This document shows, in pieces, positions 2,628-11,682 of a stretch of DNA of 11,682 bases (position 1 is the first letter of the stretch; every line of letters begins with the position of its first letter). A program made the position numbers and the translations under genes. The stretch lies in assembly GCA_024511395.1 (NCBI GenBank), contig JANELJ010000033.1, forward strand, positions 1 to 11,682. The letters are read 5' to 3'. Source of the DNA: Gammaproteobacteria bacterium. GTDB taxonomy: Bacteria; Pseudomonadota; Gammaproteobacteria; GRL18. The notes below the pieces were generated by a model. The model ran no database searches and had not been told where the DNA came from. It worked only from the letters and a program-made list of their open reading frames with translations.

Positions 2628-3163
2628 AGTGATACTTCAGGAGACTTCAGTGAGTGTTCCAGGCCGGCAATCACCAGGGTCACCCGGTCACTGATGCTGG
2701 CCAGTTCCTGATGCAACCAGCCGGCTTCATCAACAAAGCGTCGGGTGAGCTCACCCATAGGCACCACACCCAGTCCGGTTTCATTACTGACCAGGAAGAT
2801 ACTGGCTTTATGTTCCTGAAGAATGGTTAACATGGCCTGTTTTTGCTCGGAGAAAAGATGAGGGTCGCTATGACATAGCAGATTACTTAGCCATAAAGTT
2901 AAACAGTCAATCAGAATCAGCATATTAGGCCGATTATACTCGGCAAGCACACTAGCCAGGTAGATCGGTTCTTCGACAATTATCCAGTGTTCCGGTCTGC
3001 GACTTTTATGCCGGGCAATCCGCTGTTTCATTTCATCATCATCGTCCGTGGCTGTTGCAATATAAACCACTGGAACATCGCTATTATGAGAATATTCAGC
3101 AATGCGTGACTCTGCCAGCCGGCTTTTACCGGAGCGGGCACCGCCGAGGATTAATTCAATCAA
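2624..3163 (-). CDS. cobU: CobU/CobP, adenosylcobinamide kinase / adenosylcobinamide-phosphate guanylyltransferase
   Basis: A bifunctional cytoplasmic enzyme that phosphorylates adenosylcobinamide and then transfers GMP from GTP, activating it for CobS. The 179-residue protein has a P-loop GGARSGKS (7-14), YIATATDDDDEM (34-45), RHKSRRPEHW (51-60) with the candidate guanylylated histidine H52, DCLTLWLSNLL (86-96), and SNETGLGVVP (126-135). The start is TTG, overlapping the terminal TGA of the upstream GGDEF gene as TTGA. An AGGTGG Shine-Dalgarno sequence sits seven bases upstream of this TTG and supports the choice. Translation may be partly coupled to the upstream gene, which carries an amber codon 450 bases earlier. 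The enzyme itself looks intact. Confidence 0.95.
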   Translation of the reverse strand: MIELILGGARSGKSRLAESRIAEYSHNSDVPVVYIATATDDDDEMKQRIARHKSRRPEHWIIVEEPIYLASVLAEYNRPNMLILIDCLTLWLSNLLCHSDPHLFSEQKQAMLTILQEHKASIFLVSNETGLGVVPMGELTRRFVDEAGWLHQELASISDRVTLVIAGLEHSLKSPEVSL

Positions 3164-3609
3164 TGACTGTCCACCTGGGCAATAATACAGCGGTTACATC
3201 CCTGCTCCTTAGCCTGATACAGAGCCTTATCAGCCCTGGAAAAGGCAGAATCCGGAGTATCATTTTCCACAAACAGACTGATACCGCAGGAAATAGTCAC
3301 CTTAACGTTATCACCCCGGTAATGAAATTCCAGTTTTTCAATGATTCCACGGATTTTTTCCACGACTTTATAACCGCCGCCTAAAGTAGTTTCAGGCATT
3401 AAACTGACGAATTCCTCACCACCGAAACGGGCCACAAAATCCGTTTCTCTGAGGTTCTTCTGCAAAACCTGGGCAACCACTTTTAATACCTTGTCACCTG
3501 CCTGATGGCCGTATCGTTCATTAACCTGTTTAAAAAAGTCAATGCCCCAGACCATAATTAACAGGGTGTTATGGTATCGTTTCCAGCGTGCATACTCCTG
3601 CTGTATCCG
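3160..3609 (-). pseudogene. Catalytic (GGDEF) half of a dgcH-like diguanylate cyclase, cut off by an in-frame TAG
   Basis: These 149 codons continue the reading frame of the upstream coiled-coil gene without any shift; only the TAG at 3610-3612 separates them. They complete a GGDEF domain. The GGEEF active-site loop is at 3409-3423, the RETD inhibitory-site motif (RxxD) lies five residues before it, and the guanine-binding Asn and Asp of FKQVNERYGHQAGD are present, as is the closing KALYQAKEQGCNR. The usual DIDFFK motif reads GIDFFK: codon 3546-3544 is GGC where GAC is expected, so the first metal-ligand aspartate (D327 in PleD) is missing. The first internal ATG (3555) falls inside the domain and has no visible ribosome binding site, so a functional fragment is unlikely. 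The stop overlaps the cobU TTG. Confidence 0.85.
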
Positions 3610-5100
3610 CTAGTCATAAGCCATCCGGTTTGGCAATTCAGTCAGAGAATCTATTAAAGCCTTATTCTGTGATTCGAGCACCTGCTTTCTTAATTTACCG
3701 CTCTGGGACTCCAGTTTTTTCAGTCGGCCCGACAAAACTTCGCTCTGCTCTTTTATTCTGGCTACACGAATATCTTCTTCAGCACGGTGCTGATCAAGAT
3801 GTGTTATGATTTTATCCAGGTGGCTCTGTACCGTATTTTCTACTTCTTCCAGAGTACTCAGTCCCGTAACAGAATCACTTATCCCTTTAACCTGATCTTT
3901 AACGGCATCATCCAGTTTTATCCCACTCTGGTATGAGGCCTCATGTTCCTCTATATTATTTTGCAGATATTGATCCACTTCTTTTAGACGACCGGTAAGA
4001 CTTTTCAGAAATTTTTCAAACTCTTTCTGTTCCTGCTGAACATTACGCTGCATCTCATGAATAAGCTCGGCAATGGCCTGCAGAGCATCGGGTAACTGCT
4101 CTGTACTGACACCATTTAAAAAATTATTTTTGAGTTCTTCAGCCTTTGCCTTAACACTGTCTTCAAGAGGTAAAAATTCCAGCAGGCGAATCAGCAACTC
4201 ATGATGCTGAGAAACCTCAGACATTAATTCATCGCAATCCTGTTCAACCACACCATAGCCTTTCAGAATATCCTTCAGATCATCCAGCAGGACATGAATT
4301 TCCCGGTTTGGTTTGACGGTAAAAACCTTGTCTTTAAGCTGCTCCTTAATATCCTGGGGCACATCCAGTCCATCGATAATAGACTCCAGAACATTTTGCA
4401 CCGTTGCAACCACGCTGGTCAGCTGTTTCTGATCCAATTCCTGTAAGGATTCAGACTCTGTATCATAAGAAGCATGATGCTGGTTATCATCCCTTTTTTC
4501 TGAGTCTTCAGCCTGTTCTTCACGCTCCTGTGTGCCATTGTAGACAGTTTCAGATTGAGCATCATCCGCAGCTTTAGAACGTGCAAACAGACCACTCAGA
4601 AATCCTGCCTTGCCCCCTTCCAATTGCTCATGATTCTGAACATCTTCAATGGCCTGCTGAATCACATGGTTCAGTAAATCACTGAACTGCTCTATTAACT
4701 CTTTCTGTTCAGGGGGATTTATGGGTTTTAATGCTTTTATGAACCTGGCAGCTTTTTTTTCTGCTTTGCCATTAAGGTCCATACCTTCAATAATTTTTAA
4801 CAGCAGGCCAGCATCACCAGTCGGCCCGGATTGAAGCTGCTTGTCCAGTCTGATCACTTCCTTGGTGACATTTTCCAGAATGGTTCGAATAATCCGGTTA
4901 TTTTTGCCTTTACGCAGAGCCGTACGCAACTGCCCAAGCTCATTATCCAGACTTTTACTATTGCCTTCTGCAGCTAGGCTTAAGCGGGAAATGGCCTGTT
5001 TAAATACTTCTTCCCGATCATACCACTGCTTTTCTTTCTGTTCCAGCTCATCCAGACTATCATAGTATTTCTTTTTCCACTGAGTTGCATTGTCAGTCAT
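3610..5100 (-). CDS. Coiled-coil N-terminal region of a dgcH-like diguanylate cyclase, truncated by an amber codon
   Basis: As it stands this encodes 496 residues ending in DSLTELPNRMAYD, the first strand of a GGDEF domain, at TAG (3610-3612). The protein is highly charged and helix-rich, with no membrane segments. It reads as a long coiled-coil sensory or scaffold region typical of some soluble gammaproteobacterial GGDEF proteins. With the downstream 149 codons the gene would give about 645 residues, similar to what I recall for Pseudomonas PA5487 (DgcH), which also lies next to dsbA. I place the start at 5100, where GGCGGA sits six bases upstream; a longer ATG at 5127 lacks a good ribosome site. 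The residue before the stop suggests an original Glu codon (GAG to TAG). A truncated product without cyclase activity is the simplest expectation. Confidence 0.8.
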   Translation of the reverse strand: MTDNATQWKKKYYDSLDELEQKEKQWYDREEVFKQAISRLSLAAEGNSKSLDNELGQLRTALRKGKNNRIIRTILENVTKEVIRLDKQLQSGPTGDAGLLLKIIEGMDLNGKAEKKAARFIKALKPINPPEQKELIEQFSDLLNHVIQQAIEDVQNHEQLEGGKAGFLSGLFARSKAADDAQSETVYNGTQEREEQAEDSEKRDDNQHHASYDTESESLQELDQKQLTSVVATVQNVLESIIDGLDVPQDIKEQLKDKVFTVKPNREIHVLLDDLKDILKGYGVVEQDCDELMSEVSQHHELLIRLLEFLPLEDSVKAKAEELKNNFLNGVSTEQLPDALQAIAELIHEMQRNVQQEQKEFEKFLKSLTGRLKEVDQYLQNNIEEHEASYQSGIKLDDAVKDQVKGISDSVTGLSTLEEVENTVQSHLDKIITHLDQHRAEEDIRVARIKEQSEVLSGRLKKLESQSGKLRKQVLESQNKALIDSLTELPNRMAYD

Positions 5101-5189
5101 TTTAATTCCGCCAGACCATTTGCTCATAATAGACTCAATATATCCAGTCTACCCACTGTATCTGCTAACTATAATAGTAAAACCACAAT

Positions 5190-10708: not shown

Positions 10709-11329
10709 ATGGCCGAAAATAACAATCAGAAGCCCAATCTCTATCGCAAGGCTGAATTTTTACTCAGCGTCAATAAATGGGCCGATCTGCCTGCTGACAG
10801 TATTACCGAAGTGGCATTTGCCGGCCGTTCCAATGCCGGTAAATCCAGTGCTATTAATGCCATTACCGACATCAAAACCCTGTGCCGAACCTCTAAAACA
10901 CCCGGTCGAACCCAGATGATCAATTATTTTACTGTCTCTGAAGGGAAACACCTAGTGGATCTGCCCGGCTACGGCTATGCCAAAGTGCCGGTTAAGATTA
11001 AACAGCACTGGCAGAATCTGCTGGAACGCTATCTGGTGGAACGTCCCATGCTCAAGGGAGTGGTCATGATTATGGATGTCCGCCGTCCATTGACAGAATA
11101 TGATGTGCTGATGCTGCAATGGTGTCAGCGTGCCGAAATGCCGACCCATATACTGCTCACCAAGGCAGACAAGTTCAAACGCGACGCGGCCCAGAATATC
11201 CTGCTTAAAGTCCGGCGCACCCTGAAAGAAGAATACCCCAGTACCACGGTACAGCTATTTTCGGCACTGAAAAAGACCGGTCTGGATGAGGCTCGTGCCC
11301 ATCTGGATGAATGGTTTAACCTAAATTAA
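10709..11329 (+). CDS. engB: EngB (YihA/YsxC) ribosome biogenesis GTP-binding protein
   Basis: A cytoplasmic GTPase needed for maturation of the large ribosomal subunit and usually essential. The 206-residue protein shows the expected motifs in order: G1 GRSNAGKS (39-46), G2 region TPGRTQ (64-69), G3 DLPGYG (84-89), G4 TKAD (151-154) and G5 FSALKKTG (184-191). CCGGGGC precedes the ATG as a modest ribosome binding site. It is divergent from the cytochrome genes, a pairing also known from Pseudomonas. Its TAA overlaps the stop of the opposing chimeric ORF by three bases, and I see no intrinsic terminator after it, so its transcript may run into that remnant in antisense. Confidence 0.96.
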   Translation: MAENNNQKPNLYRKAEFLLSVNKWADLPADSITEVAFAGRSNAGKSSAINAITDIKTLCRTSKTPGRTQMINYFTVSEGKHLVDLPGYGYAKVPVKIKQHWQNLLERYLVERPMLKGVVMIMDVRRPLTEYDVLMLQWCQRAEMPTHILLTKADKFKRDAAQNILLKVRRTLKEEYPSTTVQLFSALKKTGLDEARAHLDEWFNLN

Positions 11330-11682
11330 TCTTTAAATTTCTCTGCAATATTTTTAAACGCACTCTGTAATACTTCAAAGGCATCCACAATATCCGGGTC
11401 AAAATGACGGCCTTTCTGTTTCAGGATCAGGTTGACGGGAATTTTATTGCCTTTAAGGCCGTATGGATAGCTGGAGCCGTCCCATTTTTCATGATGAGTG
11501 AGGGTGATTTCTCTGGCTACCCGCAAAAAAGATGTGGAACCCAGTTCATTTTCGGCTCGGATAATGGCATCACCGACTGTGCCTTTGAGGTAGCAGCGAT
11601 CTAAACGGCCATCGTTTTTCATATGACCGATTTCAGGCTCAATCGCACTGCGCCGTTTTAATGCCTTTTTAATACTTCGGGT
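11326..11682 (-). pseudogene. In-frame chimera: transposase C-terminus joined to a damaged HD-GYP phosphodiesterase tail
   Basis: The frame is open from the window edge to TAA at 11326 (118 codons plus stop). The first 35 to 40 residues are transposase. From about 11571 the protein becomes the C-terminal part of an HD-GYP cyclic-di-GMP phosphodiesterase: DAIIRAENELGS, the HHEKWDG motif, YGLKGNKIP, then GRHFDPDIVDAF. The HD-GYP part is broken. The catalytic HD motif and everything before it are gone, GYP reads SYP, and the roughly 30 residues that normally lie between the IP motif and the HFDP motif (including the ADVYDAL block) are missing at about 11431-11436, without loss of frame. Any product would lack the metal site, so I treat it as a pseudogene. 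An internal ATG exists at 11622 but falls within the transposase part. Confidence 0.85.
11563..11682 (-). mobile_element. Truncated 3' portion of an IS5-type DDE transposase gene
   Basis: The codons at the window edge translate to KRRSAIEPEIGHMK followed by NDGRLDRCYLKGTVGD. This fits the R-(3)-E-(6)-K part of the IS4/IS5 transposase signature; the catalytic glutamate codon is 11640-11638. The RSAIEPxIGHxK block followed by YLKG and GD is familiar from IS5-family proteins. The remaining C-terminal residues and the expected terminal inverted repeat are absent, because the sequence switches into HD-GYP code near 11563-11574. The 5' part of the element lies outside the window, so its completeness there is unknown. 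Confidence 0.8.

Follow-up and report, generated by a model that had tools for sequence, protein, structure and literature searches.

A decay scar as the probable origin of an open reading frame joining an IS5-family transposase to the 3′ remnant of an HD-GYP gene

The window analysed here, 11,682 nucleotides long and 45.1% G+C, corresponds to contig C274 in its entirety, one of the contigs of a draft gammaproteobacterial genome (G000; 2,264,450 bases in 407 contigs, completeness 99.43%), and its edge at position 11682 is the end of the contig. A minus-strand frame enters at that edge and runs through 118 codons before meeting a stop that ends at 11326. Within it, an ATG-started open reading frame (11622-11326) would specify 98 amino acids. 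The initial annotation had proposed that the frame stays open upstream of this ATG as far as the window edge, and that it passes from transposase into HD-GYP sequence without a stop. Both proposals are borne out, since residues 2-40 match an IS5 transposase model and residues 39-84 match an HD-GYP-related domain. The features that matter for the argument are as follows.

11574..11682, minus strand: 3′ part, up to the switch, of an IS5-family transposase gene that runs off the contig end (NF033578 match and genomic copies; transposase sequence extends further upstream in the database protein P0001).
11562..11573, minus strand: 12 shared bases that hold the switch, GTGATGCCATTA on the minus strand.
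11326..11561, minus strand: 3′ remnant of a REC+HD-GYP response-regulator gene (HD_5 match above cut-off; congener genes adjoining engB).
11435..11438, minus strand: scar that an in-frame 90-base deletion, with about four bases (CCGT) shared at its ends, left within the HD-GYP remnant (alignments to G003, G005, G002 and G004; break-point sequences).
10709..11329, plus strand: engB (yihA), an intact neighbour that serves as synteny anchor (open reading frame; 97% identical frame in the congener G005).

The EngB protein of the window is identical to that of a database cluster of 60 contigs, and in a search of plasmids the matches, engB-like ones among them, were 60-80% identical and each fell short of covering 80% of the query. 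With the exception of a diguanylate cyclase at 3160-5127, the remaining genes of the window hold their frame relative to G005.

In the downstream half of the fused frame, the Pfam HD_5 match scores 31 bits against a cut-off of 27.2 and covers only positions 81-126 of the 170 in the model, and the NCBIfam NosR family NF053512 gives 32.4 bits, below its cut-off of 400. A homologous REC+HD-GYP gene adjoins engB in all five congeners (G001-G005) and is complete in four of them, with frames of 362 codons in G001 and G004 and 366 codons in G003 and G005; the 246-codon frame of G002 is cut by a contig edge. Because a large gene that resembles a hybrid sensor kinase by eye precedes the homologue in both G005 and G001, the ancestral arrangement was probably a kinase/REC-HD-GYP pair. 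Homology between the window and the congener genes extends to 11573 (G005, G002, G001 and G004) or to 11571 (G003).

In its C-terminal sequence and in its position beside engB, the remnant is like the REC+HD-GYP c-di-GMP phosphodiesterase genes of the congeners. Unlike them, it has neither a receiver domain nor the catalytic motifs. The receiver domain and the HD motif (PLHDIGK in the congeners), which binds metal, would lie 5′ of the switch and are missing from the window. Active HD-GYP domains carry the signature HHExxDGxGYP; where the congeners read HHEKWDG(S/T)GYP the window reads HHEKWDGSSYP, so that GYP has become SYP. Finally, the in-frame 90-base deletion, whose ends share about four bases, took 30 codons that include DVYDAL. 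Since the receiver domain, the HD motif, the glycine of GYP and DVYDAL are all lost, the known roles of these motifs make it very unlikely that the remnant could function as a phosphodiesterase, and the fusion product is almost certainly dead. Neither an intact allele nor the 5′ part of the HD-GYP gene was found in G000 among the 40 of 61 first-look candidates that were scored, and the best other match (71% identity over 180 bases) was judged to be a paralogue. By eye, two database proteins, P0006 and P0110, appear to represent this HD-GYP gene broken in other ways, by an apparent frameshift in one and a different internal deletion in the other, which hints at repeated loss of this gene in relatives.

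The upstream half matches the NCBIfam IS5 transposase model NF033578 at model positions 364-402 of 419 (41.5 bits, E 9e-11), a score far below the whole-protein cut-off of 275, as is expected for a fragment. Pfam DDE_Tnp_1_6 reaches 13.8 bits on the fused frame, under its cut-off of 25.1, and the transposase assignment therefore rests on the NCBIfam model and on the genomic copies. The Pfam search that had been suggested earlier thus supports the HD-GYP half through HD_5 and fails to recognize the transposase half. The IS5 C1 signature has the form R-x3-E-x6-K. The window reads RSAIEPEIGHMK, which fits, and together with the NF033578 match it confirms that a C1 region of IS5 type lies in frame. 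The stretch 11575-11682, which could have turned out to resemble HD-GYP proteins, matches transposases.

The DNA from 11562 to 11682 recurs in G000, with at least 27 matches (the window itself included) among the 40 of 53 first-look candidates that were scored, and 14 of the 26 other matches cover the full 121 bases at 94-99% identity. A search of the whole draft with NF033578 gave 48 matches, many of them at contig ends, and a single one exceeds the cut-off of 275 (C201, at 275.5 when combined with its frame neighbours). We aligned 23 of the 26 other matches (all except C8, C193 and C52) for comparison. At the position of the switch, 21 of the 23 read GGTGATGC(C/T)ATTA followed by AT(G/A)TGGTTA, the T variant of (C/T)ATTA occurring in C188 only, where the window has TCCGAGCC. 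The transposase continues past the switch point in 21 of these copies; C325 has an internal deletion and C131 is unaligned there. Other copies end on the right in TTATTCAGGTTGAAC or variants and on the left in GTCCGACCTGAATAA or variants, which together form an imperfect terminal inverted repeat. By our own count, the element is bordered by six bases of the form TANNTA in 16 of the 17 right flanks compared and in 8 of the 9 left ones. No copy among those examined shows both of its own ends, and several others are broken within the gene, either through joins to other DNA (C387, C201 and C253) or through internal deletion (C184 and C325).

At the window locus, the left end of the element is off the contig and the right end is lost, the right inverted repeat being absent and HD-GYP sequence following the switch in its place. 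The initial annotation was therefore correct that the transposase end and its inverted repeat are gone and that the locus is not a simple insertion. A simple insertion of the element into the HD-GYP gene is rejected, as there is no IS end at the switch. Among the congeners, the transposase has three matches in two of the five genomes, versus 32 in G000. One lies in G001 at 25% identity; the others are two pieces in G005 at 100% identity, and since both are short and stand at contig starts, G005 may hold unassembled copies. G014, of the same family, has a match at 85% identity within a 481-codon frame. Regarding intact parents elsewhere in the genome, which the initial annotation proposed to seek, copies of the transposase were found and an intact HD-GYP allele was not, among the candidates scored.

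The two halves meet in bases that both parents hold. Relative to G005 and G002 the overlap is 12 bases (11562-11573), and relative to G003 it is 10. In a comparison that took in G005, G002 and G003, the 12-base word proved to be the longest common to the 688-base IS part (taken from the C270 copy) and the G005 and G002 genes. The G003 gene shares a different 12-base word with the IS elsewhere, which the join did not use, and the G004 gene differs by one base at the switch site. When 200,000 random joins of the IS part to the G003 gene were simulated, five had 12 or more shared bases and eight had 10 or more. The existence of a 12-base word somewhere in both genes is not very rare (9 of 200 shuffles reach at least 12), and the rare feature is that the join falls on the shared word rather than that there is such a word. 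Because simulated joins so rarely share this many bases, the join very probably used them, which supports the earlier suggestion that a short shared sequence mediated it. The shared bases also lie in the same reading frame in the transposase and HD-GYP genes, so the fused frame could be open without selection. The junction 25-mer occurs in one of 57 genomes, G000 itself, and the congeners have REC+HD-GYP instead; a natural, conserved architecture is ruled out on these grounds.

We consider it likely that the fused frame is a scar of gene decay, in which a deletion between short repeats joined an IS5-family transposase to the 3′ end of an HD-GYP gene. A c-di-GMP phosphodiesterase gene of the REC+HD-GYP type would have had an IS5-family element in its own orientation, either upstream or within its 5′ part. 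A deletion between the 12 shared bases, with one copy in the transposase gene and the other in the HD-GYP gene, would then have brought the two frames together at the cost of the IS right end, of whatever DNA lay in between and of the first two thirds of the HD-GYP gene. The common frame of the shared bases would have kept the joined frame open with no need for selection. In the order of events that we envisage, the remnant would have been emptied further by the separate deletion of 90 bases, whose ends share about four. The deletion that joined the frames was presumably independent of RecA and may have proceeded by replication slippage or single-strand annealing. The outcome resembles the RecA-independent deletions described previously (PMC4627823), in that two direct repeats become one and the intervening DNA is lost. 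However, the repeats of that study are 438 bp long, whereas those proposed here are 12 and about four bases, and the event at this locus is deduced from its product rather than watched. Several observations count against the decay-scar reading, namely that the contig end is unmatched, that G004 differs by a base at the switch and that the 12-base word of G003 was left unused.

An unlikely, though not negligible, alternative is a rearrangement rather than a local deletion. Through recombination at the shared bases, an inversion or translocation would have linked the 3′ end of the HD-GYP gene to an IS copy from elsewhere, and the upstream DNA would have been lost through other IS events. The many IS copies in G000 would offer partners for such an exchange. 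Beyond the 5′ part of the HD-GYP gene in G005, contig C299 from about 19,433 to 44,082 (24.6 kb) has weak matches in G000 (at most 87 bits), and no orthologous DNA for this stretch was found among the first-look candidates scored (40 of 61 and 40 of 48). Synteny with G005 resumes on C332, whose end bears a different IS, as judged by eye. More than one event therefore separates the two sides, and because the far side of the IS element is off the contig as well, a simple deletion is not proven against rearrangement. Nevertheless, the reduction of two direct repeats to one is reached in fewer steps by deletion. As judged by eye, C332 also has a gamma-glutamyltransferase-like gene (3195-3449, L207) that carries an in-frame TAG and is cut by a different IS.

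A further possibility is that the join is an artefact of the library or the assembly, in which an IS copy was wrongly connected to the HD-GYP gene through the 12 shared bases. This concern, already raised by the initial annotation, is a fair one, given that the join lies 121 bases from the contig end and within a multicopy repeat of the draft. An overlap of exactly 121 bases with another of the contig stretches retrieved is seen for six of the 26 contig ends compared. The window itself extends exactly 121 bases beyond the point at which it last differs from other IS copies. We interpret these end matches as the mark of a k=121 graph, in which the window would branch at this point. No other place in the draft matches the last 121 bases of the window exactly (the best is 99%, and the longest exact stretch from the contig end is 101 bases), and so the graph partner expected at the contig end is not seen. 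However, 12 bases should be too few for an assembly at k=121 to merge paths, no intact HD-GYP allele was recovered among the candidates scored, and the remnant carries its own 90-base deletion. In addition, the database protein P0001 (162 amino acids) is identical over all 118 residues and continues for 44 residues further upstream into the transposase; over 84 residues, its transposase portion has 93% identity to the C270 copy. As the window is unable to encode the first 44 residues, P0001 comes from another contig. Its cluster has four member sequences and two contigs, the longest of 30,645 bp, although these contigs may derive from the same sample as the window. The join is very probably real, judging from these sequence comparisons, and a chimera is a highly improbable explanation.

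The decay-scar reading is in keeping with the state of other c-di-GMP genes in G000. HD_5 has six matches there, at five loci, and three of the six contain stops, versus 8, 9, 12, 10 and 12 matches in G001-G005 (51 in total, none with a stop and a few of them partial). One of the five loci is the window remnant, and comparison with G005 proteins, with frames worked out by hand from coordinates, shows frame changes at the other four; these, on C52 (L209), C95 (L211), C202 (L210) and C361 (L212), have stops or frame changes. GGDEF has 19 matches in G000, six of them with stops, versus 32-61 in the congeners, and EAL has 13 versus 16-34, where partial matches are inflated by contig breaks at IS copies in the draft. 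The diguanylate cyclase within the window (3160-5127, minus strand) contains an in-frame TAG close to where its GGDEF domain begins, and its G005 counterpart is intact at 662 codons. On C184 (L007) and C34 (L024), the same IS5 element adjoins pieces of GGDEF/EAL genes, each with a TAG, and the element may therefore have hit other c-di-GMP genes. The best reading of this pattern is IS-driven erosion of c-di-GMP signalling, which is a known kind of process. We dropped genome reduction as an argument from size (2.26 Mb versus 3.2-4.2 Mb in the congeners), since EngB database clusters at 100% rounded identity hold contigs as long as 3.47 and 4.01 Mb, so that the draft probably lacks repeats.

It is scarcely credible that the fusion is a new working gene, translated and with a transposase-derived half that gives the HD-GYP tail a new role. 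P0001 has 162 open codons and its cluster has four member sequences, but the HD and DVYDAL motifs and the glycine of GYP have been lost, all of the HD-GYP loci found in G000 are broken and the shared bases suffice to keep the frame. The same very low probability attaches to a 162-codon chimera kept in several strains and translated for some non-enzymatic role, such as binding DNA at IS copies or interfering with the remaining c-di-GMP proteins. Since the HD-GYP part is already a remnant with a second deletion and every such locus found in G000 is broken, two points that the initial annotation had not noticed, we regard the fusion as a scar and not a gene.

A comparable condition has been described for the tubeworm symbiont Candidatus Vondammii deminuti HMS1, in which IS expansion is accompanied by truncated transposases and by fewer two-component systems (PMC10300362). 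That chemosynthetic symbiont has 986 transposase genes in ISs, 716 of them putatively truncated, and 29 two-component genes versus 46-61 in vestimentiferan symbionts. The likeness lies in IS-rich erosion, with abundant transposases that are mostly truncated in HMS1. The G+C content of the window, in contrast, is 45.1% versus 50.41% for HMS1 (PMC10300362), and the host of the window is therefore probably a different organism. The terms ‘c-di-GMP’ and ‘pseudogene’ are absent from the main text of the HMS1 paper, and a literature search covering titles and the beginnings of abstracts turned up no fusion of a transposase with HD-GYP.

The value of this locus lies in a tidy record of an event and in the collapse of the c-di-GMP genes around it, rather than in a new protein. 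It offers a clean example, in which both the IS copies and the congener gene can be compared, of how chance short homologies would let IS copies seed deletions. Such deletions would leave in-frame chimeric open reading frames that enter protein databases, which warns that domain fusions in IS-rich draft genomes should not be read as new architectures. Finally, because the HD-GYP loci found in G000 are all broken while each relative has 8-12 matches, the genus may be used to follow the loss of c-di-GMP control.
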